Source of the DNA: Hippasteria phrygiana | Lineage: Eukaryota > Echinodermata > Asteroidea > Valvatida > Goniasteridae | Reading direction: 5' to 3' | Length of the DNA: 64,000 bases | Assembly: GCA_037893225.1 (NCBI GenBank) | Contig: JAZGUH010000112.1 | Span: 1-64,000, forward strand | Shown: positions 1,157 through 60,440 of the stretch, piece by piece | Layout of the letters: each line of letters starts with the position of its first letter | Numbering within the stretch: position 1 is the stretch's first letter | Made by a program: the position numbers and the translations under genes | Notes under the pieces: model-generated | The model's database searches: none | Told to the model about the DNA's origin: nothing | Seen by the model: the letters and a program-made list of their open reading frames with translations, nothing else

Positions 1157-1271
1157 TTAACCCTAACGTCCTAAGCATTCATTTGGGGGTATAACTTCTC
1201 ATATGACAGTGTAGTAAGAGTACTGCATACTGCAAGTTATAGTCTGTAGCTTTATGTGAGGTTAGGGTTAA
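1157..1271. mobile_element. TTAA-flanked element, subfamily A, short deletion copy
   Basis: 115 bp, TTAACCCTAAC..GTTAGGGTTAA. Its right end (TGTAGCTTTATGTGAGGTTA) is the complement of the left end of 33242-33707, and its left end matches that element's right end. It is an internally deleted relative. Confidence 0.75.
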
Positions 1272-25500: not shown

Positions 25501-28500
25501 ATTTCAACAAAGGACCGATTTTAACAAAGGACTGACTCCTGAGGACAAGAAAAATTCCTTTGTATTTTCTTTCTCCTCTTGTCCTTGAACGTATATACAG
25601 TACATGTACATGCATTTCACACCTGTAGTACCAATAAATGCATTCCAAACATGGGCTAACAAACCAGTAATGTCAAGTAATCTAATATATAATTTTTTTC
25701 ACATTTGAAGGGGCAAAATTGCTTTTAAATTTTATCACGGGACAAAGTGGGAAAACATTTTCACACCTTTTCACACAAGTGGAAAAATATTTTCACACCT
25801 TTTCACACCAGTGGAAAAATATTTTCACGCCTTTTCACAAAAGTGGGAAAACATTTTCACGCCTTTTCACACAAGTGGGAAAACATTTTCACACCTTTTC
25901 ACAAAAGTGGGAAAACATTTTCACGCCTTTTTCACACAAGTGGGAAAACATTTTCACGCCTTTTCACACAAGTGGGAAAACATTTTCACGCCTTTTCACA
26001 CAAGTGGGAAAACATTTTCACGCCTTTTCACACAAGTGGAAAAACATTTTCGCGCCTTTTCACAAAAGTGGAAAAACATTTTCACACCTTTTTCACAAAA
26101 GTGGGAAAATATTTTCACACCTTTTCTGAAAGTGGGAGAATAATTTCCCACAGGTGGGAAAACTTGTGTGAGAAATGTGAATGGGAATGGAAATTCTTTT
26201 CACAAAATTTCCCATTCCCATTCACAGTGTTAACTTTCAATTGCAATGTACTGTACTGCATATGGAGCAGTTCCGACTTTTCTCTTCTGGCCCATTTTAT
26301 CAAACACAAAACTTGTTTTGTCACATGAACGAATGGCACTCGTAGAGAAACTTCGGATACAGTTTTCTCAAAATATTGGTGGCACATGAATTTGACAGCA
26401 CTACTAGAAAGATCTGAACAGTGAACGGCGAAAAAAAAGCACTACAACTTGTTGAAACGTGGTGAATATATCTGTTGTTTGGATGCTCTGGTGTGTGGTT
26501 TCCTTGTCGAGTAAACTTGACATTGGTACGGAAAGGGTCAATTCTTTGCATAACAGCCTCACCAGTCAATGATATACAGGTCCGGGGTAAGGCACTGACT
26601 CTTGAAATGGTGGTAGAGATCGGGAAGATTGTCCTCAAAGTACTCCTCATAAGTATCAAAATACGACTGCATCTGAAATGAAGTACAGTACAATGTAAAA
26701 TTATATACAGCTGGCTAGCTTCATAAGCAAAAACACATATTTAGCAGATGTGATTCATAGGCCCATTTCACAAAGGTAATATACAACATTTGCAAACAAC
26801 AAAAAACAAAACAACTGAATTATTATGAAATACTTGACCAGGTAAATAATAGTCTCAAGCATCCTGTGAAATCATGGCACCTGTTCTGCTGTCATTTTCA
26901 AGAATTTTTGTATCAATGTCCAGTGATGTTTGGATGACGATCGTTGGGGAAAAGACTGACTTTATTTCGAATACTACCCCAATTTACCAACTTTAGTTCG
27001 TCCACATTTGGTTTGGCAATTAGTTTACACATGTGAATGGGCGCAAGCCAGCTAGTCTAGGTCCATGACCTGATAATTCCCTGATATCTATAAACTGCTC
27101 CGTTCTGTCTAAAGTATAGTCAGGGAACCAGACTACAAGAACAGCATTTTTTCCTGTTTTTCCAGCATCTATGCAAACAACATTTTGAACAGGTCAGTGT
27201 TACAGTATTTCCTATAAAATACTAAACCCCAAATCCGTTCACTTCTGAAAATAACACACACAAAAAAACCGAATGTTGCATACTACCTTTAAAAAACACA
27301 TCAACAATTAACTTCAAAAAGAATGATTGGCGCCTTTAAATTGAGGGAGATTGTGGATAGAAATTGTATCAGTTTGCTCTTGGCCGACGCAAACAAGAGG
27401 AGCAATACCTTGTTGGGCACATCTAGGGACAGCACCGCAAACAATTCTCAAGCATTTGAATAATCACGCCCGACCAATCCGGTATACGCGCAATCCGTGA
27501 TACCCTGCACGATATGGGGGAAAGGGGTACCCCCCCCCCTTTTATCCCTATACCCTAAGCACACTCCAGATTATTGTTATCTAACACATCCCCCTAGATT
27601 TCTGAATAGAATTCCTGAGATTCCGGGAACACAATGACCAACACAAAAGAGGGGGAGGGGGGTCCCTTTCCCCCCATATCGTGCTTCATATGCAATCCGT
27701 CAAACACGCCTTGCATTTCGTGCATGGGCACACATAGAGCAGGCAACAAGGTATTGCTCCTCTTGTTTGCAAAGTCGGCATCACGTTGAGACGATTTTGA
27801 GCCAGAAATAACTCCTTTGCTTTACGCTTCTAGAAGAGGATGCCCAAGAATATTTATGCCAGTAAACTGTGATTTTTAAATCCCAATTTCAAGCATAGTC
27901 CTCCTGTGCAGTTTCGTGCACTGAGACGCCATATTAAAGTATCCTTCTAGGGCTAGATTAAAACAAGAGATGGAGAAAGCGAACAAGCCTCAAAAAGACA
28001 TTGGGATCAATACCATCAACTCGCCTTCAAGACGTGGGAACTTACCACAGTTTGGTCCAGCCGGAAGAAGGCAAGTTGGCACGACTTGTTAAGAACGTTG
28101 GCAAAACAACAAAACGCATCGGCAGGCTCCAGATAGAGGAGAAACACTGCTGCGATGAACGACATACCTTGAACCTGGCAGATAAGAAAATAATTGTGAC
28201 AATCCAAAGCATAGTACTGGTGAACAAGTCAAATATTATTGTTAGGGTGAAGTAGTATTATTGACGGCATCGGGTGTAGCGCACCTTTTAACTTCTTTAT
28301 TTTTCCTTTCAGGCATTTTTTCTGGATGTTTAGACGTGTACAGGAAACGCACACAGAATGACCCTGTGATGCTGGGGGGGTCAGCGTGCTTGCAAGATAG
28401 CGCAGTGCAATCATCCCGATCTAGCATTTGTGCATGAATTAGTTGATCGCACAAACATCAGTTGATCGCACAAACATCAGTTGATCGCACAAACATCAGT

Positions 28501-31500: not shown

Positions 31501-34500
31501 GTCTCCGCGGCTGTTGGTTGTCATACATACCGCATCACACTGACCATACTTCTGTTGGAAAAGACACTTGGTTGGTAGTATCTCTTTTGTATTTTTTAAG
31601 AGAGTAAAATTTGACTGAGACGAGAAGCAGTGGAGTATCCAGTAGGTGGGCGGGGCAACATCCCCCTCCTTCGCAATTATAAAGAAATAAAGTACCCCAG
31701 TTCCGAGTTCACAGGGCGAGTAGCCTAGCATACCAGATCCAAGTTCTGATGGCTTAGTTATTGGAAAATGGGTTCGAATCCTGTCCTGTCTGGTCATAGA
31801 ACTCGTGTCCTTGAGCAAGACACTTTATCATAATTGTTTCTCTCAACCCACGAGTAGAAATGGGTACCAGTGAGAGTTGGGGAGTAACCTGCGATGGACT
31901 GGCATCCTGTCCGGGGGGGAATAAAAAATATTCTCAATTAACCTCTTGAATCAGGAAGACGGCCACAGCCACAGGTTGATGTCTATAGGCGCATTCCTGC
32001 ACTTACTCAATCTATTCATTTTTCAAATATATTGTTCTTGAATGGGATTGTAATGAATAGATGGAGCTTTTTTCAAACACAGCTTTCGTTCACACAATGG
32101 GGGGGGGGGGGGGGGGGGGCGAGCTTCAAGTACAATAAATAGAACCACTTTATTCACAGGCATGCAACTTGAGTTAACCAACAAAATGAGGAAATTCCAA
32201 TTTTTTACAAGACTTTGTACAGTGTTTCTTAATTTTCAATGGCATAAGAATGAAGTGAAAAACGATGAAATCAGCTGATGCCTGTATTCAGTGTGGTGCC
32301 TATTTTTTGCATTTACGCTTGGCTGCACAGCCCCGATCCTGGCATACTAGCACCCCATCAATAAGAGCTGGACTCGATGGATTAATGCCACAGAAACTGG
32401 ATACAAACACTGCCCAATGAGTCATTTTGCCTGGGACAGACTTTCGTTTACTTTTACTACGACAACGACCCACCTTCCTCCGAGTCCTCCGTGTCGGGCT
32501 CGCTGAAGACCTTGATCCGATCCTTGGCTCTGGCCAGAAAGATCTCAAACAGCTCCGGGGTGATGTTCAGCTCGTTGCCGATGGCCAGCATCCAGACGCG
32601 GCCGCGGATACTCGGCGGGATGCCCTGCCACCACATCTCTCGCGTCTTCTTGTTGGTTTTGCTGTGGGTTGGAATTACACGCAAGGCAAGGGGAACAGCA
32701 GTGAATTATGATGTACATAAAAGGAATTATGTATAACACCTCACCCACAGATTCTGTGTCTCGATTGGCCGAGAGCGAGTCACACGACATTCGCTATTTT
32801 TGCTATCTACCTGTGCACGGCCAAAAGTACTATACCTGTAGCAACCAAAGTACTATACGCATAGCAACTACAAGTTGGAATACAATTAAAAGGGCAAAGG
32901 TCATAAATGTTACTGTCAACCATTTTTTGGAAGACTCCTTAACTTACGAATTTTCCCAGTTTTTCAGGATCTCTGTCTGCCATACGTGTAGTAGCGTCTT
33001 GATTCCTTCCTCGTATTTGAGCTGCTTGGCTAGCTTCTTCATCTGCTGCTTGTAGACTTTGATTTCTATACCACACCGGAAGAACAAGAGAGTGATTCAA
33101 TTTCAAAGTGTTTCTTGGATTTGGTAAACTTTTTGGACCTGTCAACCAGTCGCAGTATGCCGTGTGAGATTTAAAGGTTCATAGAAGTTGAAAACTGTAC
33201 TCAATACATGTGTAGCTGTGAAATGACACATCGGCGATCTTTTAACCCTAACCTCACATAAAGCTACAACATACGAATAGTAGTAAACTATAGTATGTAC
33301 AGTACTACTCTCCCCTATTTGTGCACAATGCTTGTAGTAATTTTTAGTATTTGATACTTCACCCCAAATAAAGTATAGGTAGTAATATATACTACTGCTG
33401 TTTGTTGCTGGGGTTGGAGGCAAAATGTCTGTTTTCATCTAAGGTGGAAACAAAGCATGAACTACTGGTTTTCAGAGATAATACAATTTGTTATCTCAGC
33501 CATCCAATTCATTGACACAAATATAATTTACTCAATAACTTAACTGTATTACATAGAAGTAGTACTCTGTAGTTGCAAGTATCTTGACTGCTGTCATGAT
33601 ACACTCAATCATCAAAGACAGAGAGACTCAGTGCTACAGAATACTAAGTAGTATTTCGTAGTACACAGGTCTTCACCCCAAATGAATGCCTAAAATGTTC
33701 GGGTTAATGTACATGTACTTTAGTTTTTCAGGACATTACCAAGAATTTTGACAGAAAAAAACCCGTTCTGTGTAACTCCGCCCACAAAATACACCCCTTT
33801 CTGGCCGTGACATCGCAGAATAAAACATTGCTTGCCGTGCCTCAAATGTCAAGAGCCGTGTACAAAATTAAGGGTCTACTTGTATATGTAGGGCCGTTGC
33901 AAAAAAAATGGTTTTAGTTTGCCAATGACATCATGGTCAGAAAGGATTTTTTTGGGTAGAGGCACACAGCAATGTTCTTCCTGTCGTAAGCCTTGGCAAT
34001 TTACTAAAACACAAAAATTTATAAAAATTAATTGTTTCGTATGTAATCAAAATTATTTGAATGCCAATTTATAGGTTTTTCAAGTTTTGTTATCTGTGAA
34101 CCTTCAAAACGGATCCATTCCTGTGTCGGTACCATATGTACAACACGTACATTGCACATGCACACGTATGTCATCCCACATGACTGCACATTCACTACAG
34201 GACCATTTTCTGACAGGCAGAGAACATGCTCCGCATACAACCACTTACATACATGTATCCTCCATGAAGAGCTGGGGATTGAAATTCAAACTGGATCAGT
34301 GGAATGAGTCTAGTAATTTAGGCATTAGTGTATCAGACTCCAAGACCAAGTAGACTAGTAGAACAGGCCTCGAAAAAGTACTAGCCTGGCGTACAAATTC
34401 TAGTGAAAAACGCTCCGGGCTACCTAAACTTGGTTCCTTGGTGGGCTTGTGAAAAATTTAGTAACCTACCTGTTAAAATTTAGATCAAAAAATGCTTACG

Positions 34501-40500: not shown

Positions 40501-43500
40501 GAATTTTGTGACATAAAAACTTACAAAGTACAAAGGGTTCAGAGGTGAAAACAAATTTACTATTTTTTTCTTTTACATGAGAGGTTATGCAAAACAGCAT
40601 GTAACTTAACAACAAATCATATTTTCAGTATCTCTTACATCTTTTCTGTTATATGGCTAAAAACAATCTGTGGTTAAGTGGTAACGGATGGTGTCCCATC
40701 CTGCCTGCATGTCTAGCTTCCTTACTTTTCATCAAATGAAGTCTGAATTAAATTTCATTTCTTTTGTGTGATTACTGTTTTAATAAAAGTAACTTGTAGA
40801 TTCAATATATTGGACTGCCTTTTCAAAATTGGGGCAAAATGGACTCGGATGTAACGTTGGTGTCCCATGTTACATCCTTACAATTATTGGAACTTTCTTC
40901 CATAATTCATCTGTAAGCAGTATGTGAGATGTCCATGCAACATGATAACAAAAGCCCTGTCCGCACTGGACTTTTGTTGGTAAAGCTTACTGAGACGATG
41001 GGTACTTTTCCCATTTTAAGTCCAGTGCAGACAGCCTAGGACGTTTTCCTCTCAGTTACTTTTCCTGAGTCCAGCGGGTACTTCTACTGGGCAACTGCTG
41101 CCCAGGAAAACTGACCAGGTAACTTTTCCCGAGACGATAAGTCCAGTGCGGACAGTGCGAGTCGGTAAAAGCGGCTCAGGAAAGCGTACATCCGTGGGAC
41201 ACCACGAATGCGCTTTGCATTGTTTCACCGCGGTGCAGCGAGTTTCCAAATTCCAATGCGTTTTTCCTCTTTTGGTCACAATCATGGCAGATATTATTAT
41301 TGATAAAGTCGGAAGTTTGATTAGTGCTACCAGTGCATCATTCCCAGATGATAATGAAGGACGTCAACGTGTACACACCGGCCAAAAGAATGAAAAGGCA
41401 CTTGTGCTTTGGGTCAATCGGGTAAATGCAGAAAGGTCACGCAAAACGCCCTCATGAGTAACCGTTATACTGCGGAAGTTGGTCACATTTGACCATTTTT
41501 CATTTTACCATTGTCTCGGTAAAACCTTCCAAAAAAAGTCCAGTGCGGACACAGCTTTATCTTCCCCCAGTACCACATTCTTTGTTCAGTCAAGCATAAA
41601 CCACTCAAGCAGAAAAAGCAGCCGACTGCTTGCTGAATGGTTGTATTTTCAACCCAAGACTTCACCCTCAAGAGTTGATTGAAAAGGAAAATGTGTGTAA
41701 AATTTGTTCCATGAAAATCACAAATCAAGTAAACTCGACATGGGTAATTAGCAGGGGTGCTGTCGAGTAAACTTGACATTGGCAAGGAAAGGGTTAAAAC
41801 AACATCATATTATTATTGCATCGTTATAGACGTATGATACGTTGCACATGCAGCATGTGGACAAAGTTAGGAAAAAAAAACTTGTTGTGTTGCCCTCGGA
41901 CCGACCGTAAAAATAGACAGAATCAGGGTCGTTTTTTTTATTTTTTTTTATTCAATAAAAATGTAACTCAGCCTCTCTGTCTGATAAAGTATTTGTATTT
42001 GATGTATACCTTCTTTACTTTATGCGTATTTTCATGTAAAAACTAAACCAGGGGGTTCGTCCAACGTTTAGGCCTAAACACACATGGGTGGGAGTGAAGA
42101 TGACTTCGATCCGTCGTGCTCGTCAAAGCTCCATTTGGGCTGAAGAGTAGCCTAGCTAAAAACCCTTAAACTTTGGGTCTGGGGAGGTCTAGCAAGAAGA
42201 AAAAGAACAAGGACAGCGCCTGTGAAAATGCTATGTACAGACAACCAATTCAATGTCTTTTAGAGATGTACAAAATGTACATTTCTATTTAATATATTGT
42301 AGTGGAAGAGTCAAATCGAATTGGCAAAAACTTTGTCGTATCTCATTCAATCGGTTGATATGAAGCCAAAAGTTAGAATACTTCCATTTGGTTTGCTTCT
42401 TCAAGAAGTCGGTAGCGACGGCGAAAAAAAAATTAAAAATTCCGCGACAACCGACCCTCTTTTGTAATGTTACCGGTCCAAGGGCAACACTACAATTTTT
42501 TTTTTTGCCTATCCAAGAACTTGTAATCATCGATACTGCAGATCAATTGCATAGTGACCCAATTATTGGGTCGCAAAAAAAATCATACCGTTAACGATAC
42601 ATATCACAAATACAATGTACATGTACATGTTTTAACTGTAACCTAAAATGTGGCCAACCCCACCACCTCTGTTGTTGTAGTTCTTTAATTACCTACATGT
42701 ACACGTAGAGTGGATTTTAGCCTTGTATATTGGGGACTTAGGCTAAACTTACTGAGGGCGGTTTTCCAGAATCAACGCTGTGGTGGAGGTTGCGGGTCTC
42801 ATGCCCGACTGCTTCTTTTTCCAGTTCAGGGAGAGCGTTGGCGGGTGTGTCTTGCCCTTGGGCGGGTAGTTGCTATCAAACTGATTGGTGTGGTGCGGCG
42901 TTGTCGGCGCTGTCGCCCCTGTCACCGCTGCCTGCTTGGCGGGGCTTCGATTGAACAATTTCCAGCCTGAGCTAGCCGGGCTGTCAGTCTGGTCGACAAC
43001 CGACTTGGCGGACGACTTCCATGGAAAAAGATTTCTGTTTGAAAAGCAAAGAAGTAAATGTGGTCAAAATATACATGTACACTGATGTAATGTTAGATAA
43101 ACAAGTTACATCTACGTACATGTATGTATGTACATGTACTGCATAAGCACATGTACAAGAGAACAAGTGCTTTAAAACCCTAACCTCACATAAAGCTACA
43201 AAATAATACTTGGAAGATGTAGTATGCATTGTTATACAACACCTGAATAAATCCCCGCCATCCGATTGGTGGAGAGTCGATCACGTGCATTGAATTATTT
43301 GACCCATCACACGACGCGAACCCGCCCCGCCCAATACGTTCTATCACATGGGTCTATCACATTATGCGCGCGCATTGATAGAACCAAAAAACTTTTCTAA
43401 TTTCACGGTCACTAGGTGGCGCTACAACAGCGCTGTCATCTACACAACATGGCGGCCGAGTTACCAGAACTGCCGCGGTTTGTTCTCCTAACAGACGACG

Positions 43501-46500
43501 AAATATTGGAACTTGTAAGCAATGCTGACGCTCCAAATACAAAGAGACAAATCAAATATGCAGTGAAACGATTAGATGAATTTGCTAGACACGCAGGAAC
43601 AACAATTGAAGCTTTAACTAATTCGGAACTCGACAATTTTTTGTCCCGGATTTATGCGGAACTGAGAAAGGAAAACGGCACGTTGTACACAAAGAAATCC
43701 ATGCATGCAATCCGCTATGGACTTCACCGGCATTTCAAGGCGGTAAGAGGCATTGATATAAATGATGCTAAACTGTATGTGGACAGTACCAGAGTGTACA
43801 ATGCAATGATGGTCAAACTGAAAAAGGCAGGAAAGGGAACATTTTTAACTGTTCGAGACTTTTCAAGACAGTAATTGGTTACTGGAAGTTCTGAATTTGT
43901 AAAACAGTTTTTTACAATTCTGAACAGTTTTTAACTTGAATAAAATGCATTGAAAGTGTTCCCCCAGCTATCAGTGTTACTACATGTTTCTTACATTTAT
44001 GTAAGCACCAGTTTACAAGTTACCAATCAGATGACGAGAATTTATTCAGGCGTTGTATAAAACAAATAATGAATGTTTCACATTCGTGCGATGGAAAGAA
44101 TAATTTCATTCGGTGACAGATGGCATGTTCTATTCCACTCGGCTTCGCCTCGTGGAATAGAGAATGCCATCTGTCACCTCATGAAATTATTCTTACCATC
44201 ACACTCATAAACATTCATTATTTGTATACTCACGCCTACATGTATTTGTGTGCAATGATTGTCGTAATTTTTAGTATTAGGTAGCATACATGTACATGTG
44301 TGTACTTCACCCCAAAATATGTACATGTACATACATGTATACATGTACAAAATGTAGTACTACTGTTTGTTGCTGGGGTTGGAGGAAACATTTCTTTTAT
44401 CATCTACTGGTTTTCAGAGATGATACGTGTACAATTGACCTACATGTATCGCCGCTTACGAGTTAACCACGCCCCTTAGACAACCCTATGGGAATTTCAT
44501 GTGGGAAATTGTTGTTTGTCTCAGATTTTGCACATTCCAAGTGGAATTATAATTGATGTGATTGGACAATAATTCACAAGCTGCGTTGACGTGATTCAAC
44601 CGTGATAGGTCAATGTACCGGTTTCCTGGCCATCAACTTACATGCAGCATGCAACTTTTTACCGGTTGCAGCACTGAGACACATGAAGAATCAAACTAAA
44701 TTATTTGAAAAGGAACAGCCCTAATAGCCTTTCACATCCAGCAAACTGGAAGCTCCTTAAAACTCCATCAAGTTTAACAACACCACAAGGACATGACCCC
44801 AGCTAAGGCCAACAACTGATTTACAAATCCCCCACTGTGAGCGAGACAAGGTGGCCTAGAAAATATTGTACACATAATGTACAGACATGTAGCTTAGTCT
44901 AGCACACTGTGTACTGTGCAAACATATACAAACAGGTGTACATGTACACAGCATTAAAATTGTCTTAGGCAAAACTAACCCAAAAAAAAAAAAAAGCATG
45001 TTTAGCATGCACGCTGGTAGGGCGGTCCCAAATATAGCGGATACTCAATTATTTTTATCCTGGGTTGATTTTTTTTTTTTTTTTTTAATCAGATTTTGTT
45101 TAATTTAAATCAGATTTTTTAAAATTTAAATCAATTTTTTTAATTTATTTTTTACCATCGTACCATTGGCATAAAACATTTGTTTCAAATAAGTCAATTT
45201 AAATGACCATCATTGAAAGTCAAGTATAACCACACACAATTGTTCATGAAATCAGTGCTGAAATCCCTTTCATTGGTCATATTCTTTTCTTAGAATACAA
45301 AGTTTGATACACTTTCTCACCGTTGGTGGCGCCATTTAACCTCTTTGTTTTGTTCTCACCCATAGACAAAATAAGTTTGCAAGGCGTAAGGCCCCTACAA
45401 ACAAAAGCAACAAAAAAAAAAAAAAAAAATTGGCAACGAGCAGGGGGTGATTCGACCCCCGACCCCCCCCATCCGCACCTGCCTAGGGGGTTAGGGTTTA
45501 AAACCCTTACCCCTAATGATTACCCTGTTAAATCCAACAGAGTCCAATGGTAACTCATTATGAGTTTCCTGCTCAATCCAACGCAGTCCAACATGCCAAG
45601 TTATTGGGAAACTAAAAACATAAAATGGCTTGCCAACTGTATATTTTTCTGTTGAATGCTGAATCCAACAGCATGGTATCTGCATGTTTCAGAAAGTCAA
45701 ATTTAAGACTTTTTAAGACCCTTTTAATGCTGCCCTAAACAAAATTTAAGCAGGGTTAGGGTTATTATTAATTAACCCTAACCTTCCCAAATCCTCCAAA
45801 ATCCTCTTTGCAAAATGGAGGAATTTGGAGGATTGAGGGCACTTGAAAGTTGATGCATCGGAGGATTTTGCAGGATTGAGGTTACTAGGGGTTTTTGCCC
45901 CTGCAGGAATATGGAGGATCCAGGTTATCAGGCTCAATGTGATACATGAGGATTTTGGAGGATTGAGGTTACTAGGGGTATGCAAAAAAAACCTGGAGGA
46001 TTTTGGAGGATTCGTGCTATGGTCCCCATAAGAGGATTTTGGAGGATTCAGGTTATATGGAGTTTTAACACTTTGAAATCAGAGGATGTTGGAGGATTCA
46101 GGTTACATGGGGGGGAAATGATGTAGGGAGTTAGGGTTAATACAAAAGTTACACCGCTTAGTGTCAAATGCTGCCTTTTGGTCAACAGAAATTTGTTTGG
46201 GCCGGGTGTTTAATTGTTCCCGTCAGTAAAACCCTTGACACTTATAAAATAATTACTGCAAAAATGCAGGCTGGAGTTTGGTTTCTTGTTATCAGAACGT
46301 TATACGTACTCGTAATGATCTTGAATGGTGCATGCAAAAATGTCCATCGGTCGGTTCACAATATCGATCGCCGCACGTAAAACACCAGCATGCTTTGCGT
46401 GCAACTCTTTACCGGCGCAGCATGCAGTTGAATCAGAAACGTGAACAAATTGATCGGTGAGTATTAAATGTTTGAATATTCGGTCTAACCCAGTTTCGAA

Positions 46501-55500: not shown

Positions 55501-57953
55501 TGTGGGACTCGAACCAATGACCTCGGGCAGGTCTTAACCACTCAACCACTGAGCTTTGCTGGGGTCAGCTGGCCAATTTGAATCAAATGTACACGTAGCA
55601 GTGAGTACCTCATAATAAGTGTGTAGATCGAGTCCCAGCCGAGTACGCCTGTGGATTTTTGGAAAGATTTTACTTTAATACTAAAATCGGTCAAGAACAG
55701 CAAAATCTTGGATAATAACCAACCCTCCTTGATAACAACTGTCTAAACATGTGGCACAACCTGTTATTTCAAGATTTATGTCAGCAAAATCTGTATAAAA
55801 AAAATCGAAAAAATCAACATGTGAACACTTTGAGTGACTGTACATGGTGCCAAGAACTTCTAACAGAAAAAACAAAACTTTTTCCCCTATATTTCACTAA
55901 AATGTCCCAACAAAATTCTCAAAATTAAAGGTTGTGCCGAGTGTTTATAAATACAATTATGAACACAAATGGATGGTTATTTTCCAGGATTTGCTGTTCC
56001 TTACTGATTTTGGCGGGGGGTATTAAAGTAGAATCTTTCCGGATTTTTTCCCACAGGCTCTCGGAAAGCACTGAGCATACAATGCTTCATACCCTACGTC
56101 GGGGAAAGGGCAAAACAAATTCTTCTAATTCACATCATCCCCGACGCAAATTCCATCTTCACACCCATCCTTAGGCCGGATGCCAAAACAATAGACCTTA
56201 TCTTAAATACCGCCTGGCTGAGTCTGCACAATGGTCACAAGGGGGCGCCTTAACGCCATTGACAAACCACAGTGTTAATAAGGCACCCTATCTCGACCAC
56301 AAACGACTTCAAACTTTGGAGTGGTAAATCCTGTGGTCTTGGTAAGCGATATTCTCGTAAAATTTCACCATTTCGAGTGACATTTCAAGGAATTGAACCT
56401 AGCCTTCGTGTATAGCCATATCAAGATGCATAGAAAATGTTGGGCAGAAAACTTGACAATTTTCTACCACAGCAGTTTATATTGGTCTCTCTGTAAGGTT
56501 TGTGAAAACCTTACAGTTCTGGAAGTATTTCTTTCCCACAATCCCTTGTGACCATTGTGCGGACTCAGCAAGGCAGCATCTACGATAAGGTCTATTGGTG
56601 TTCAAGTTGGGTCGTAACTCACCTCGCTAAAAATCCTGCCAAGCCCCTCTTCTTTGGTTTAGCCCCTTGGGTAGCATATGCCCAGTGCTCCCCTCCGCTC
56701 AGCTGGCTGTGTAGGCTGACTTCAACAAAGCCCAACTCAATGTTATCCCTGGTTTCGCTGAGGTCATCCGTGGCCAGAGAGGAAGAGTAATCGGTGCTCA
56801 GGCTTGAAACGCTCGTAAACGATGCCCTGGACCTTAGTTCGTGCTGCAGGATGCCAGATAGATGCAAGCTCTTGGAATCAAAGTGGCCTTCTTGCAAAGG
56901 CTCTAGTGATGGTTCTTGAAGATCAACAACAGTACTACCGGGTTCGTTTAGTTCATCGAGGAAACGAGGAGTGCTGGTTGATGGAGTTGTTCTGAGGGAC
57001 TGGGGCTTGTTTGGGGTGGTCCACTTGGGGGCACTGGGGTCGTAATCCAGGCAGCCCTCCAGGGACTTTGGCCTTCTCAGCTTGGAACCGATCGGCGCCT
57101 GGGAGCCCAGATTGATAACGTCAATGGTTGCGGGGGATAGGGGACTCTCTCCTGAGAGCTCAATGTCACTGAGAATGAGCTCCTCGCTAGTGGTGACATC
57201 CAAGACTGCTGGTTGATCATGAGACGATTCCTCTGACTGGGACGTAGCGACGTTACTCGTGCCGGAGTTTAATACTGAGCTTGTGGGGGAATCTGAGGGA
57301 TTTTCCTCCCCGTCCGCCGGTGTCCGTTCCCCTTGTGGTCTTACTACATCGGAATCTAATCTTATTGCATCTTGTGTTGTAGTTATGGCAAGACCTTTCG
57401 CTATTGCATCACAAGATCTGCTCTTCGTATCTGCACCAATGTCTTCTGTCACAGTTAAACTGTCTACGCCACTAGTTCTATTGCATAACTTGACCGTTTT
57501 CTGTACAGAATTGCTTGATGATGAACTCTTGGCACTAGATTTATTTGTTGTTAAGTCTATGGATGCACCTGTCACTAACGTTAGATTTTCAACAGCTGTT
57601 GGTGAATCAAGCGAAACACCATCCATTGTAGTCACAGTGTGGTCATGTGACAGCCTGCTTGTCTCCAATACCACCGACTCATTTTCCACAGGGTGTCCAG
57701 TTAATGGATTTTTCAACTCCAACCCTGTCACACCATTAACTTTCTGGCCTGTGTGGTGTTGTTCTTGGGATCCGGCAACCATCGCGAACTGTAACGGCTC
57801 CGCTGAGACACCCATGCCTGCAGACGGTTCACTGGCAATGGCATCAGAAGAAATCAGAATCTCCCTGAAATCGCTACTGCTTCCCGGGTCGTGCACTATT
57901 TTTGGCGGGTTGTTGCAAATGTTGCCAGCTAGCGACCCAGCTTGGGAGTCCAT
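22397..57953 (-). CDS. TBC1D14-like: TBC-domain Rab GTPase-activating protein, TBC1D12/TBC1D14 type (11 exons, complete)
   Basis: CDS = complement of 22397-22584, 24804-24907, 26563-26672, 28046-28174, 29734-29805, 31230-31315, 32474-32661, 32948-33065, 38188-38270, 42753-43034 and 56623-57953 (2,691 nt, 896 residues). All ten introns are GT..AG and every junction keeps phase. The long N-terminal region (about 1-535) is Ser/Thr-rich and low-complexity. A charged, probably helical linker follows (about 540-600), then the TBC domain (about 612-870). The catalytic signatures are intact: arginine finger in IxxDxxR (R686) and glutamine finger in YVQG (Q722). From family knowledge, vertebrate TBC1D12 and TBC1D14 act on recycling endosomes, bind RAB11 and, for TBC1D14, ULK1, and influence autophagy. 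The protein is longer than human TBC1D14 (about 690) or TBC1D12 (about 775), mainly because exon 1 is large. I infer a single pre-duplication orthologue; a tree would confirm it. Confidence 0.95.
22844..23010. repeat. dispersed repeat copy with TIR ACTTCCGAGGACAA
   Basis: The best-preserved ends of this family: ACTTCCGAGGACAA at left and TTGTCCTCGGAAGT at right. It also has an uninterrupted TTAATATTACCC where the 48 kb copy holds its insertion. Confidence 0.75.
23211..24487. mobile_element. 1.3-kb element with TIR AGGGGTTTCAAAAT (hAT-like)
   Basis: Ends AGGGGTTTCAAAAT and ATTTTGAAACCCCT. Subterminal GCCGGC..CGGCTA motifs appear at both sides. No ORF looks like a transposase. It fills most of TBC intron 10. 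Confidence 0.65.
24804..24907 (-). CDS. TBC1D14-like: TBC1D12/14-like exon 10 (residues 800-835)
   Basis: The acceptor is caatcttgcag and the donor G|gtaaga. The encoded [20 protein letters not shown] then [12 protein letters not shown] is nearly the family consensus (F.LYSKSLPLDLACR.WDVFCRDGEEFLFRT). Confidence 0.95.
25410..25592. repeat. dispersed repeat, empty-site copy
   Basis: Inverted ends of the GAGGACAA..TTGTCCT type. Relatives at 22844-23010, 48103-48538 (carrying a TTAA element) and, inverted, 49903-50087. Three copies lie in TBC introns 9, 10 and 1. Confidence 0.75.
25747..26130. repeat. 32-bp minisatellite, 12 units
   Basis: Unit GTGGGAAAACATTTTCACRC plus CTTTTCACAMAA. Because 32 is not a multiple of three, overlapping open frames appear in all three phases; they are not genes. 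A relative with about one unit lies at 39230-39380, with the same 3' flank (TTCCCATTCCCATTC). Confidence 0.85.
26563..26672 (-). CDS. TBC1D14-like: TBC1D12/14-like exon 9 (residues 764-800)
   Basis: The acceptor is cttcatttcag and the donor TG|gtgagg. The encoded [14 protein letters not shown] and TPDLYIIDW match the FFEENL..LF.HFK and TPDIYLIDW blocks of TBC1D12/14. The tryptophan codon is split by the intron. Confidence 0.94.
26772..27293. mobile_element. MITE family R3 copy in TBC intron 8
   Basis: AAAGGTAATATACAACATTT at left and ATGTTGCATACTACCTTTAAA at right (last 20 shown loosely). It holds the continuous CCCCAAATCC site that is interrupted in the 19,869 copy. Confidence 0.7.
27383..27779. 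mobile_element. outer MITE with TIR GCCGACGCAAACAAGAGGAG
   Basis: ~32-bp TIRs (GCCGAC..GCAAACAAGAGGAGCAATACC) enclose the inner element 27507-27684. One arm of the family, without a partner, occurs at 55,310-55,360. Confidence 0.8.
27507..27684. mobile_element. inner nested MITE, TIR GCACGATATGGGGGAAAGGG
   Basis: Symmetrical ends GCACGATATGGGGGAAAGGG and CCCTTTCCCCCCATATCGTG, with the shared interior GAATTCCTGAGATTCCGGGA. Other copies: 13093-13266 (inverted) and 491-669. Confidence 0.8.
28046..28174 (-). CDS. TBC1D14-like: TBC1D12/14-like exon 8 (glutamine-finger exon, residues 721-763)
   Basis: The acceptor is atctgccag and the donor GTG|gtaagt. The exon begins [20 protein letters not shown], carrying the glutamine finger Q722, and ends with [11 protein letters not shown]. 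Both stretches align to the human proteins. Confidence 0.95.
28441..28558. repeat. 19-bp tandem repeat, about 6 units
   Basis: Unit CAGTTGATCGCACAAACAT, nearly perfect. It lies in TBC intron 7, just before the ~185-bp satellite. Confidence 0.85.
28841..29410. repeat. ~185-bp tandem satellite, three units
   Basis: Units start near 28841, 29041 and 29235. Each holds CAATCGYGGAC, CTAACTTTTTCGGAAG, CTCCCATTGGTTTTGTACAC and an (AC)n run. The 154-codon ORF over it is a by-product of the repeat. Confidence 0.8.
29734..29805 (-). CDS. TBC1D14-like: TBC1D12/14-like exon 7 (residues 697-720)
   Basis: This 72-nt phase-0 exon, with acceptor gtcttgcag and donor TAC|gtaagt, encodes [20 protein letters not shown] and then DIGY. 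The final tyrosine begins the YxQ glutamine-finger motif, so the intron splits Y from VQ. Confidence 0.95.
30649..31060. mobile_element. TTAA-flanked element with AATCCAACA repeats
   Basis: 412 bp, TTAACCCTCAC..GTTAGGGTTAA. The interior repeats AATCCAACAAAATACAACAG-like units. It lies in intron 6 of the TBC gene. Related interiors occur at 20400-20475 and 45490-45768. Confidence 0.7.
31230..31315 (-). CDS. TBC1D14-like: TBC1D12/14-like exon 6 (arginine-finger exon, residues 668-696)
   Basis: The acceptor is ttctgtgcag and the donor AAG|gtaggt. The encoded [17 protein letters not shown] contains the IxxDxxR motif; its arginine (R686) is the catalytic finger that enters the Rab active site. 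The human counterpart is IKLDISRTFP. Confidence 0.94.
31738..31990 (+). repeat. tRNA-derived SINE with a widely shared 3' domain
   Basis: A-box-like TGGCTTAGTTATTGG (31750) and B-box GGTTCGAATCC (31771) are followed by GTCCTTGAGCAAGACACTT and GCGATGGACTGGCATCCTGT. The last two are blocks I recognise from SINEs across fish and invertebrates. It lies in intron 5 of the TBC gene and accounts for the long minus-strand ORF there. Confidence 0.7.
32474..32661 (-). CDS. TBC1D14-like: TBC1D12/14-like exon 5 (TBC domain start, residues 605-668)
   Basis: This exon encodes the opening TBC signature [15 protein letters not shown] and then [16 protein letters not shown], nearly identical to human TBC1D12/14. 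It ends in an acidic loop (EDSEEG) that is also acidic in the family. I placed the donor at GAAG|gtgggt because it restores phase with exon 6; the ORF otherwise runs on a few codons to a TAG. Confidence 0.93.
32948..33065 (-). CDS. TBC1D14-like: TBC1D12/14-like exon 4 (residues 566-605)
   Basis: The acceptor is ggtatag and the donor TTC|gtaagt. The reading frame gives a lysine/glutamine-rich amphipathic helix ending [12 protein letters not shown]. It matches the W.NEILPNWE motif that leads into the TBC domain in vertebrate homologues. Confidence 0.9.
33242..33707. mobile_element. TTAA-flanked element, subfamily A, intact
   Basis: 466 bp beginning TTAACCCTAACCTCACATAA and ending GTTCGGGTTAA, in intron 3. 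The same family appears inverted and short at 1157-1271 and interrupted by the ORF-bearing insertion at 43172-44410. Confidence 0.75.
34363..35276. mobile_element. 0.9-kb element with TIR ACAGGCCT (hAT-like)
   Basis: Ends ACAGGCCTCG and CAAGGCCTGT, with subterminal CTAGCC/GGCTAG motifs, including a triplicated CGGGCTAGTAAAACTCTAAA near 35,168-35,220. No coding region. Confidence 0.65.
35417..35602. mobile_element. MITE, TIR TTAAGGCCGGTTCATACTTC
   Basis: Ends TTAAGGCCG and CGGCCTTTAA, with ATGAAGC/GCTTCAT subterminal pairs. A diverged half lies at 31061-31200, directly after a TTAA element. Confidence 0.7.
36545..36621. mobile_element. short TTAA-type element, subfamily E
   Basis: About 77 bp: TTAACCCTACA, then ACTCCCTAGGGCGTGTGGAA, then GGAATGTTAGGTTTAA. 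Related copies at 20558-20614 and 1624-1697 share CTCCCTAGGGTGTG and AATTGG..GATTCAG. The three copies lie far apart, so the family is dispersed. Confidence 0.65.
37359..37577. mobile_element. MITE, TIR AATAAGCCAGTTCGKTAT
   Basis: ~18-bp TIRs. Relatives: 29505-29645 (interior ATTCAAT..GGGCGTTCGCGTAAC) and a lone end at 49126-49143. Confidence 0.7.
38188..38270 (-). CDS. TBC1D14-like: TBC1D12/14-like exon 3 (residues 538-566)
   Basis: This 83-nt exon has acceptor ttgtccag and donor AAAG|gtatgg. It encodes [20 protein letters not shown] and the start of a basic helix. It corresponds to the NLPAK..EEA..HRQ.YEEMV segment of the human proteins. Confidence 0.93.
38662..39158. mobile_element. hAT-like element with ATTCGAATA-rich ends
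   Basis: Ends AGGCTGTCCCGAAAATAC and TGAACAGCCCT, with AATATTCG-type subterminal repeats. A partial copy at 46150-46540 lies next to the TTAA element 45772-46140 and shares CAGGCTGGAGTTTGGTTTCT. Confidence 0.65.
39465..39499. repeat. short near-perfect palindrome
   Basis: ACCATGGAGGAAGG and its complement around GATATATC, in TBC intron 2. Confidence 0.8.
40951..41559. mobile_element. element with ~50-bp TIR around GTCCGCACTGGACTTTT
   Basis: Left end GTCCGCACTGGACTTTTGTT and TACTGAGACGATGG; right end the complement with AAAGTCCAGTGCGGACA. More copies of the TCCAGTGCGGACAG motif lie inside and in a relative at about 52435-52775. Short interior ORFs show no known domain. Confidence 0.7.
42753..43034 (-). 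CDS. TBC1D14-like: TBC1D12/14-like exon 2 (residues 444-538)
   Basis: The acceptor is tttcaaacag and the donor CA|gtaagt. The exon completes the arginine codon and continues N-L-F-P-W-K, then a proline/threonine-rich stretch, then the very conserved ALILENRPQ motif, which in human TBC1D12/14 reads [10 protein letters not shown] just before the charged linker. The conserved ends and poorly conserved middle are typical of this protein pair. Confidence 0.93.
43231..44243 (+). mobile_element. TIR-bounded element carrying the Crypton-like ORF, ending in a large palindrome
   Basis: Imperfect ~40-bp TIRs (43231-43270 and inverted 44022-44063) share the core TATACAACRCCTGAATAAAT; nearly all differences are transitions. 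From 44050 to 44243 follows a long palindrome with ~80-bp arms centred on CACTCGGCTTCGCCTCGTGG. Its outer arm repeats the AGGCGT/TATA motif of the TIR. The whole block interrupts an older repeat whose uninterrupted relative is at 33242-33707 (shared flanks AACCTCACATAAAGCTACA and TTGTTGCTGGGGTTGGAGG), so it is an insertion. Exact ends and target duplication are not clear. Confidence 0.7.
43449..43874 (+). CDS. 141-residue ORF resembling the N-terminal (core-binding) half of Crypton/ZMYM/QRICH1-type tyrosine recombinases
   Basis: The ATG at 43449 (CACAACATGGCGG, good context) opens a 141-residue frame ending in TAA at 43874. Residues 25-120 carry the pattern [16 protein letters not shown], ..[39 protein letters not shown]. 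This is the signature I recognise from the N-terminal helical domain preceding DUF3504 in Crypton elements and in the domesticated ZMYM and QRICH1 proteins. The downstream catalytic domain with its R-H-R-Y residues is absent; the frame stops soon after KKAGKGTF. The ORF lies in intron 1 of the TBC gene on the opposite strand and is flanked by TIRs (43231-43270 and 44022-44063). It may be a truncated transposon gene or a short DNA-binding protein. Family assignment rests on motif memory. Confidence 0.65.
   Translation: MAAELPELPRFVLLTDDEILELVSNADAPNTKRQIKYAVKRLDEFARHAGTTIEALTNSELDNFLSRIYAELRKENGTLYTKKSMHAIRYGLHRHFKAVRGIDINDAKLYVDSTRVYNAMMVKLKKAGKGTFLTVRDFSRQ
44433..44614. mobile_element. MITE, TIR ATTGACCTA..TCGC, best copy
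   Basis: The left end ATTGACCTA is interrupted by an extra CATGTA before TCGCCG; the right end is CGTGATAGGTCAAT. A fragment is at 59712-59756. It follows directly on the subfamily A element in intron 1. Confidence 0.7.
45772..46140. mobile_element. TTAA-flanked element with degenerate GAGGATTTTGGAGGATT repeats
   Basis: 369 bp with TTAACCCTAAC..GTTAGGGTTAA ends. The interior is built from about eight imperfect copies of a GAGGATTTTGGAGGATTnAGG unit, related to subfamily C. Confidence 0.8.
47530..47750. mobile_element. TTAA-flanked MITE with CCCTTGAGTACGG ends
   Basis: 221 bp between TTAA at 47530 and TTAA at 47747; TIRs CCCTTGaGTACGG and CCGTACGcAAGGGG. A second copy at 6624-6868 shares almost the whole interior (TTGTGCAGTCAAGC, ATCCAACAATGGATTG) and carries an extra ~22 bp near its right end that makes a local hairpin. 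Confidence 0.75.
47747..47891. mobile_element. TTAA-flanked element, subfamily B
   Basis: A 145-bp element with TTAACCCTAAC ends; the subterminal TGCCAGACGCA pairs with GATGCGTCTGGCA. It is nearly identical to 51314-51463, so recently mobile. Its left TTAA is shared with the right end of the element 47530-47750, meaning one was inserted in the target duplication of the other. Confidence 0.85.
48143..48414. mobile_element. TTAA-flanked element with CCCTAAC ends, subfamily C, inserted in a dispersed repeat
   Basis: It begins TTAACCCTAAC and ends GTTAGGGTTAA. The interior consists of degenerate repeats of the GGATTTTGGCGGATTCAGG type. The flanks (CCTATTGTTCC and TATAAC.CAACCCCATAGACT) are continuous in the copy at 25410-25592, where a single TTAA stands at 25448-25451. 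The element with one TTAA is therefore an exact insertion duplicating TTAA, the hallmark of piggyBac-type transposition. Confidence 0.88.
48775..49053. mobile_element. TTAA-flanked element, subfamily C, inverted copy
   Basis: TTAACCCTAAC..GTTAGGGTTAA with the same interior as 48143-48414 in the opposite orientation, 360 bp away. It carries a small internal TACATGTA expansion. The pair could form a large hairpin. Confidence 0.85.
49903..50087. repeat. inverted copy of the ACTTCCGAGGACAA repeat
   Basis: Reverse orientation, interrupted by A-rich and T-rich runs (AAACAAACAAAC near 49,978 and a 13-T run near 50,027). Confidence 0.65.
50146..50317. repeat. large palindrome with nested palindromes
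   Basis: ~78-bp arms beginning GGGAATAAATATGTGCTGGG. Each arm contains its own inverted repeat GGTTTTAAACGTAC/GTACGTTTAAAACC. The loop is GAGCCGAAGGCGAG. Confidence 0.85.
51314..51463. mobile_element. TTAA-flanked element, subfamily B (second copy)
   Basis: 150 bp, TTAACCCTAACCC..GGGTTAGGGTTAA. The interior is the same as 47747-47891 in the same orientation, with few differences. Confidence 0.85.
54103..54160. repeat. 10-bp tandem repeat CAAGTCCCTG
   Basis: About six units inside an inverted-repeat element (GTAGTCGAGTCC near 54,087, complement near 54,312). A relative with the unit inverted is at 36,796-37,040. Confidence 0.75.
54772..54977. mobile_element. degraded TTAA-type element
   Basis: ATAACCCTAACC..GGAGGGTTAA; the left TTAA is mutated. 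The interior contains an inverted pair, CCTATCAAAACCTATCAA and TTTTTTGATAGGTTAT. Confidence 0.55.
55412..56122. mobile_element. composite inverted-repeat element, with nested MITE and tRNA-like segment
   Basis: Outer inverted repeats of about 65 bp (..GCACTGTATGCTCAG, TTTCCGAGAGCCTGTGGG) enclose the tRNA-like segment 55500-55565 and the nested GGAAAGATTTTACTTTAATA element at 55661-56040. Confidence 0.7.
55500..55565 (-). repeat. tRNA-like sequence (SINE head)
   Basis: On the minus strand: A-box-like GCTCAGTGGTTGAGTGG (55539-55555) and B-box GGTTCGAGTCC (55505-55515). It lies within the larger inverted-repeat element 55412-56122. Confidence 0.55.
56623..57953 (-). CDS. TBC1D14-like: TBC1D12/14-like exon 1 (start codon exon, residues 1-444)
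   Basis: The exon opens with ATG at 57953 in the context CCAGCCATGG, and an in-frame TAG lies three codons upstream, so this is the true start. It encodes a long Ser/Thr/Glu-rich disordered stretch with no recognisable domain. It ends in the conserved basic motif [11 protein letters not shown], which in vertebrate TBC1D12/14 also precedes the N-L-F segment. The arginine codon is split by the intron (AG|gtgagt, then A from exon 2). Confidence 0.93.
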
Positions 57954-60440
57954 GGCTGGAAACTAAAAGGCCTACAAGTTCGCTTCATTAGTTAAAGTTG
58001 TTTGTCTGATCATGTCTGATGATATCGTCATGTTTACACTTCCGCATTCATGCATTGCTGCTGACGTAAATCACACAGCTGATCTGCATGCTACACGCAG
58101 TGGCCATCCCATCCGTACACCGAAATTTCAGATCACCCCAGCACATAAAACAGTACATGCAACCACCTAATAAGAAGACCCGGGGTAGGCGACGTATGTC
58201 GCGTCGACTGCCATCACCGAAAACATCCGATATCCCGCCCAAAAATGTCGTTACTTTCCATGTTTTCTTACCACAAGTCCACCGCAAATGAAGTCTGCCA
58301 TTTTCAGTACGGCTGGTACTCGGCGGCAGTGGTACAACATTGAAGAAAATCGCATAGGGTATCGTGAACCAGCTAGAATAGCAGAGGGCGTTCCTGCATC
58401 GATCGACGACGTACCCCCCTACATCCCACTTTTGGGGTGGGGTCGGCCATATTTGAGGAGGGGGAAACAGAAAAATTGGAATAAGTTTTTAATTTGGGTG
58501 GGCTTGAGGAATAGAATGGGTTTTCTGTCTGATAAAGGGAATAAAACAAAAATTGAGCCTTTGTGCATAATATCAAAAAAAAATGACGATGTGGATCGAC
58601 TTCTCAGTGGGCGGCGGGGAATCGGGATTTGTTAGGAAGGGGGATTGTATATAGTTGTAGGAAAAGATTTTTAGATATCAAGTTATTATACACTCTTTTG
58701 ATGGATGTGGCCCATATCTAGTCTATGTTGGGTCCGGTGAGGGCAGGATCGCTAAATTGTTTGTGGGTCCATTTCATTCACAGGGCGGATTTCACAGTGT
58801 AGGCCTGGATAGCGCCCCCAAGCAGCCAACTTTGTCACAAGTTTGTAACACGATTGGTCGACGGGGCTATGTCCGTGCTTCACCGTGAAAATACATTTTC
58901 CCAATTGAATTGCTAATTTGTTAGCATGAGATACATTATGAGCTTTCCAGTAAGGTACTCCACAAACAATTAACGAACGACAGTGGAAACCCCCGTGGGA
59001 ACTCTTTCCCCCCGGAAATGTGGGATTTCAAATTTACTGTCAAGGGGCTGACGCCACGTCATCTTTAGACATTGGCCTACCCCCCCCCCCCCCCACCCCT
59101 TCCTGGCTACTCTACTGACTGCCGATAAGTAACAAACTAAATAAGTTTCGAATTTTGAATTAGGATCGAAACTATCGTGGCCCTAAAGGGACATGCACAC
59201 ATCGCACATTTCTGCGCAGATTTCTGCGATGTCGCACATTTTATTGCAGATTTCTACGATGTCGTAGCCATTTTAATTTTTATCGCACATTTTGTCGCAG
59301 AAATCTGCAATAAAATGTGCGACATCGCAGAAATCTGCGATAAAATATGCAATACAATGTACGACATCGCAGAAATCTGCGCAGAAATCTGCGATGTATG
59401 ATGTCCCTTCAGGGCTACGATAGTAAGGGGGGTTATTGTTGGGACCAGTGGCATAACTAGATGTGGGAACCAGCTGCGTAGGTAAACGTGCCGTGCAGGG
59501 GGGCGTGCCCCATACAAAATCGTCGCCCCCGCAGTCGCCCCCACTGTAAATTTCGCAAAGGCAGAAAATAATAGTATTTATTAAGAAAAATACTGTCAGC
59601 GCCCCCACTGAAATATCCAGCCCCCCCCCCCCCCCCCCCCTAGAGAGAGCCCTGGCTACGCTACTGGTGGGAACCCTTGCCCTCCCCTCTTGCCCTTCCA
59701 TCCCCTCCCAATTGACCTATCGCCGTTTGTGAGTTAGCCACGCCCCTTAGACAACTTTAGACACGTGCAACACGTGGATGCAATGCGCGAAACGCGCAGT
59801 GTCGTATTACGGGGAATCATTGCATACACGCTCTCTCTGACCGGATATGATACAGGAGTTGTCTCAGATTTCTGGGACAACTTTGCCCACATAGTACATG
59901 TGCATGCAAACTTTCGTGCGACCACTTATTGCAAAAAGTGGGGAAATAGCTTTTCCCGATTTCCAGCCGCTCGTTATAACGCCTAAGCCTATCTGAATAA
60001 TGCAGATTCCCCGGACCACACCCGTATACATGATTTTCACCGTCCGAGAATCGGGGGGAAAATGAGAAATATAAACAGAACAAACTACGCTAAACGGGCT
60101 TTGCCAATGCCTACTGCAAACAAAATTAGTGTATGAAAACGTGATGGGCCGGTTGAGCGTTTGCGTTAAATTTGACGTGTAATCGCGTACTGCGTTTCAA
60201 CGAACAGGGCGCACATGCGGCCGAATAATGCGCGTATTTGGAATGTTTTTTGTTTGTCCAAGATTTGGAATATCATGTGATGTTCAACAGACGCTACGAT
60301 TGGATAATGGTCATGAACGGCGATAGGGACGCGCCTGACAATGAATCTTTATTTTGGCGCGCACTCATATTCCATTATGCTATTAAAACGCGTCAAGATG
60401 TTCTCTTTTGTTACGTCATAAGTCCTAATGATTGAAGACA
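57954..60440. other. divergent intergenic region between the TBC gene and the rightward gene
   Basis: This is presumably the 5' flank and any 5'-UTR exons of both genes. Contents: a CpG-bearing stretch near 58,050-58,300 next to the TBC start, a fold-back element at 59171-59424, a poly-C run near 59,622-59,640, and a fragment of the 44,433-type MITE near 59,712. I see no coding region. Confidence 0.5.
59171..59424. mobile_element. fold-back MITE with GCAGAAATCTGCGATGTCG repeats
   Basis: Ends ACTATCGTGGCCCT and AGGGCTACGATAGT. The interior is tandem copies of TGCGATGTCGCACATTTTAT and, in the second half, their complements. Confidence 0.8.

Follow-up and report, generated by a model that had tools for sequence, protein, structure and literature searches.

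We identify in the window (the whole 64-kb stretch of DNA analysed) an insertion that encodes half of a Crypton-type tyrosine recombinase and that carries, near its right end, an inverted copy of its own two ends joined together. The reading to which we give slightly more credence than doubt is that this is a non-autonomous, internally deleted CryptonA-like tyrosine-recombinase DNA transposon with a DIRS1-like internal circle junction. The parts of the element, in the order L - ORF - L' - R' - loop - R, are listed below with the site that fixes its limits.

43232..43270, plus strand: L, the element's left end (the left terminal inverted repeat of the preliminary description); 34 of 39 bases recur inverted at 44022-44060, and comparison with the empty site shows the left flank to stop here
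43233..43237, plus strand: TATAC at the left end, a possible crossover core (direct repeat; empty-site join 203, best 208)
43449..43874, plus strand: ORF for the core-binding N-terminal half of a Crypton-type tyrosine recombinase (sequence comparison and model)
44022..44060, minus strand: L', internal inverted copy of the left end (the right terminal inverted repeat of the preliminary description), left half of the internal complementary region
44062..44138, minus strand: R', which repeats the right end in inverted form a single base after L' and supplies the right half of the internal complementary region
44139..44151, plus strand: loop region of the R'/R hairpin
44152..44225, plus strand: R, the element's right end (pairing with R'; relatives diverge just behind it)
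44225..44229, plus strand: TATAC at the right end (sequence and empty-site comparison)
33244..33484, plus strand: paralogous empty site with the flanks side by side (window self-alignment and joined-flank comparison)

Extent and anatomy of the insertion

The element had first been described as an open reading frame flanked by terminal inverted repeats (TIRs) of about 40 bp. Inverted repeats of 39 bp are real (34/39 bases alike, ungapped), and the 21-base core common to both occurs at these two sites only in the window, with 0.00 occurrences expected from 100 shuffles; the right one is internal, however, so that the repeats are not terminal and the pair does not bound the element. Evidence for this comes from the paralogous empty site in the same window, at which both flanks of the insertion adjoin in the same order and orientation and which rules out a pair of terminal inverted repeats. 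Joined by script and aligned to this site, the flanks score 203 when the join is made at TATAC and 208 at the best join, while the filled site scores 150 (local mode) and flanks joined as though the right 39-bp repeat were the element's end reach at best 142. Because scores of 203–208 are obtained with the hairpin counted as part of the element, against no more than 142 without it, the hairpin belongs to the inserted DNA. The insertion spans about 43232 to 44226, including a 74-pair hairpin outside the supposed right TIR; the right 39-bp repeat ends 165 bp short of the insertion's right end, and the hairpin starts one base further on. TIRs at both ends of the insertion, the mark of a DDE transposon, are thus not what we find, the right copy being internal.

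The comparison concerns one insertion with an empty site, which counts against our reading, and many neighbouring joins, a few bases apart, come within 5 of the top score (208), so that TATAC is one of many candidate crossover points. TATAC stands at both ends as a direct repeat (43233-43237 and 44225-44229), a pair that could also be read as a 5-bp target duplication. The target itself is an interspersed repeat, of which the copy at 33244-33484 matches both flanks and another, at 1221-1269 (minus), resembles the left flank only. Within the window, neither the L core nor the right end has a further copy besides the two arms of each.

A single base separates L' (up to 44060) from R' (from 44062), and the adjacent pair L'R', read on the opposite strand, gives the right end joined to the left end (R.L). 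The hairpin at 44062-44225 sets R against R' over 74 aligned pairs, 66/74 of them Watson-Crick. When the element is folded as a single strand, each end pairs with its internal copy (L with L', R with R') and a single base is left unpaired between the ends; the minimum free energy is -172 compared with a mean of -104 for 20 shuffles, the hairpin contributing most. Among random 995-bp stretches of the window, 0/389 had an inside that matched both ends as well, and 9/389 matched at least one end as well. Outside the TATAC region, L and R do not form an inverted repeat: L aligned to the reverse complement of R scores 21 (300 shuffles: 95% 20, 99% 24). A weaker direct repeat of 25 bp (43288-43312 and 44180-44204, 76%) joins the left and right end regions, and its two copies are possibly shared protein-binding sites.

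Elsewhere in the window, a tandem array of about 12 copies of a 32-bp unit (92% matches) lies at 25745-26137, and TACATGTACATG-type palindromic motifs are found at 44287-44349 and in many other places. An open frame of 447 codons at 56619-57962 (minus) is probably a large host-gene exon; its last residues are suggestive of a TBC1D12/14-like protein.

Identity of the encoded recombinase half

The ORF (141 codons) starts 178 bp behind L and encodes a Cre-like core-binding N-terminal half of an animal Crypton/QRICH1-type recombinase. Its Pfam likeness is to QRICH1 and DUF3504, both Crypton-derived families, and the recombinase type is QRICH1/DUF3504/KIAA1958-like; family likeness stops after residue 129 (KAGKG), and a predicted model of the protein resembles Cre and QRICH1, with a Cre-like fold. 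A PDB sequence search gave no convincing match (best E 0.24). Pfam, relatives and the Cre-like model agree with the preliminary description, which had likened the ORF to the DNA-binding N-terminal half of Crypton/ZMYM/QRICH1 proteins without a catalytic domain, and the relation to tyrosine recombinases, whose absence would have spoken against it, holds through both family likeness and the model.

The frame has no catalytic domain and ends at 141 residues, so that an intact catalytic domain is absent from the window copy; nor was a catalytic half found elsewhere in the 64-kb window by tblastn with 70 relatives. A match of one relative (P0058) at 33982-34263 was considered as the missing half and set aside as noise, being weak (24%, E 0.009) and interrupted by one stop. 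Full-length relatives with the integrase domain, which the preliminary description had proposed to seek by their catalytic set, do exist, and every scored catalytic residue is present in 14/17. As only the core-binding half is encoded here, the window copy is non-autonomous, as had been suggested; the accompanying idea that such an element captured a foreign DNA-binding domain is superfluous, given that the family also contains full-length recombinases. More speculatively, the truncated protein may bind the element's ends, perhaps as a repressor.

Relatives, rival readings and a proposed mechanism

Having defined the parts in one copy, we looked at relatives, whose DNA layout was inferred from predicted proteins rather than from the relatives' DNA. 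Two of the 70 recombinase relatives (P0003 and P0055) extend into the L'R' region; the others stop before they reach it and so speak neither for nor against the condition named in the preliminary description, that other copies of the ORF lack the repeats. P0003 combines the recombinase N-terminus with the L'R' junction (score 52.8; maximum of 100 shuffles 21.0); the match of P0055 at the junction is weak (23.0; shuffle 95% 22.0, maximum 23.4; tblastn against the window E 0.002) and counts against our reading. The leader of the ORF partly recurs in P0003 (31.0; maximum of 200 shuffles 22.4), and a piece of it lies at the limit in P0043 (25.0 against 24.8); these two of the six proteins tested had a leader match and the other four had none.

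Could the element instead descend by deletion from a DIRS1-like retrotransposon, with gag and pol gone but a portion of the recombinase and the internal complementary region retained? That region has its two parts in the same order as in DIRS1, likewise adjacent and of matching size (39 and 77 bp). We nonetheless regard this origin as very improbable: L and R score no better as inverted repeats than given above, whereas DIRS1 inverted terminal repeats measure 66-316 bp; gag would find no space in the short interval from L to the ORF, of whose leader a piece recurs in P0003 and, at the limit, in P0043; and the Pfam families that the ORF resembles are Crypton-derived. Since inverted terminal repeats, a defining feature of DIRS1, were tested for and are absent, we read the element not as a member of DIRS but as a Crypton whose right end has the DIRS1 construction.

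With the translated hairpin region as query, 19 proteins were retrieved at E<=10 (17 at E<=1e-3). Every one of the 19 aligns with the window's hairpin region and 0/19 with the ORF, a result that counts against our preferred reading; a hairpin mostly without recombinase is what is expected for non-autonomous copies, and equally for an unrelated MITE. These predicted proteins (P0071-P0089) show the same hairpin right end without the recombinase, and many share an upstream stretch, NLFKNLNLCTSYIKQ, which suggests a numerous non-autonomous family in some animal genomes. In the relatives read in the FVY frame, divergence sets in right behind TTTGTATAY, with T next, in 9/9 (by eye). As relatives part exactly there, R is a mobile end.

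The pairing of R with R' could be followed in the relatives by a codon-based test. Across 21 proteins (P0055 and P0086 map no pair), 702/905 informative pair cells can pair, compared with 37-51% after a shift of one side by 1 to 6 bases, although changes common to several copies make the cells non-independent and gaps in the alignments move some proteins out of register. Seventy-two cells are altered on both sides and yet pair; 153/905 window pairs are broken in relatives, which again speaks against our reading.

One further relative, P0079, from a 999-bp contig, shows an L'R'-R block with L-type sequence immediately after it (score 26.8; 40 shuffles reach at most 19.4), and seems to represent a right end fused to a left end, either in a head-to-tail tandem or at a circle junction. 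The L-type sequence there matches L' reversed and not the window's own L (18.4; shuffle maximum 22.2), a mismatch that weighs on the other side.

These observations bear on a composite origin, in which a palindromic MITE (about 44059-44227) of separate descent would have landed precisely at the right end of a TIR element (43232-44060) with a recombinase fragment, the two using TATA-like targets and DDE transposases. Taken alone, the hairpin does resemble a foldback MITE, none of the 19 hairpin proteins carries the ORF, and TATA stands at both hairpin borders in the window. This would, however, require the MITE to coincide precisely with the end of the TIR element and, by its outer end, with that of the insertion. 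The L'R' junction moreover recurs in P0003 and weakly in P0055, and in P0079 the hairpin lies between an L'-type and an L-type sequence; we therefore judge a composite improbable.

Rolling-circle replication offers another account, that of a Helitron2/Helentron-like element with a captured recombinase fragment, a 5' repeat, its inverse before a 3' hairpin, and insertion next to T. Rolling-circle elements are compatible with head-to-tail copies such as P0079 may represent, and with gene capture, and the order of parts is alike: asymmetric inverted repeats, the 3' one just upstream of the hairpin, and T at the 5' end. The dimensions argue otherwise, for where Helitron2 is described with asymmetric repeats of 8-15 bp, the 3' one lying 20-30 bp from the end (38-60 bp in Helentrons; available text of PMC3627910 and PMC4067079), the repeats here measure 39 bp and the 3' copy lies 165 bp from the end. 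Moreover, the hairpin is flush with the element's end, and there is no 5' hairpin, folding of the first 100 nt and first 50 nt giving z -0.06 and z -0.18 against shuffles. An element of this kind we consider highly improbable.

On the Crypton reading, a full-length recombinase would act in trans on R and L, and the element would move as a circle carrying the R.L junction, which would integrate at targets resembling TATAC and duplicate little or none of the target. Among the sequences examined no autonomous copy bearing these ends was seen, which counts against this reading. As proposed for DIRS1, both ends would probably anneal side by side on the internal copy in a single-stranded intermediate, an annealing that would probably both restore the ends and make a double-stranded crossover site.

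The element was also sought in other collections. Protein scans confirmed no relatives of the ORF among viral contigs or GTDB contigs, and neither the L pattern nor the right-end pattern had a match in viral contigs. Loci with a 19-base R' pattern (18 viral, 12 GTDB) were rejected as relatives, blastn showing only stretches of 19-25 bases. Rfam returned nine matches at E<=1, none reaching its gathering score; the best, MIR807 (54 bits, gathering 113), was read as a likeness between long hairpins.

Comparison with known mobile elements

MarCry-1_FO, a mariner-Crypton fusion, also places a Crypton gene between inverted repeats, but its mobility is explained by a mariner transposase, 16-bp TIRs and TA duplications (as given in the accessible part of PMC3212892), none of which is seen in the window element. 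MCi-2A, a Fanzor element, shares a Crypton recombinase truncated at its C terminus; it differs in having, by the portion of PMC3627910 consulted, no recognisable TIRs and target duplications of 11-12 bp. Relative to Helitron2 and Helentrons as the available sources portray them, which share with the element the asymmetric inverted repeats, the 3' one before a hairpin, and the T at the 5' end, both repeats and hairpin are far longer here, the hairpin is flush, a 5' hairpin is lacking, and no Rep-helicase is seen.

Closest in coding content is CryptonA. The element encodes a Crypton-type recombinase, in its N-terminal half only, and it too lacks terminal inverted repeats, the 39-bp repeat consisting of one end and one internal copy. 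Fungal and oomycete Cryptons have a short direct repeat at their ends, non-autonomous derivatives outnumber full copies, and for animal Cryptons no terminal repeats, direct or inverted, are reported in the accessible text of Kojima and Jurka 2011 (PMC3212892), which makes their ends difficult to locate and leaves the way they move unexplained. The internal copy of the joined ends sets the present element apart, going unreported in the same text; nor did we find a description of a Crypton with an internal complementary region in the literature searched, a body that lies largely outside subscription journals and Repbase. If our reading is true, an internal joined-end copy would yield both ends of a Crypton from sequence alone and make the circle model testable.

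It would also be a candidate for a structural connection from Crypton DNA transposons to the DIRS retrotransposons, about whose origin opinions differ (PMC6681497 and PMC4157794, as far as available). A bolder generalization, which we think unlikely, is that some animal Cryptons keep an inverted circle-junction copy that folds into a double-stranded crossover site, and that the internal complementary region of DIRS1 is older than its reverse transcriptase and derives from such Cryptons. DIRS1-like elements, according to the available part of PMC3266345, have inverted terminal repeats (66-316 bp) and, near the 3' end, two internal complementary regions that overlap on a 3-bp circular junction and come in pairs such as 40-58 and 44-88 bp (sum 85-130 bp); the ends anneal to these regions to give a circle, which integrates without target duplication. 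The copy in the window differs in having no inverted terminal repeats, gag, reverse transcriptase or methyltransferase, and in its Crypton-like recombinase, but it shares with DIRS1 two adjacent internal complementary regions near the right end that match both ends, their sum of 116 bp falling within the DIRS1 range.
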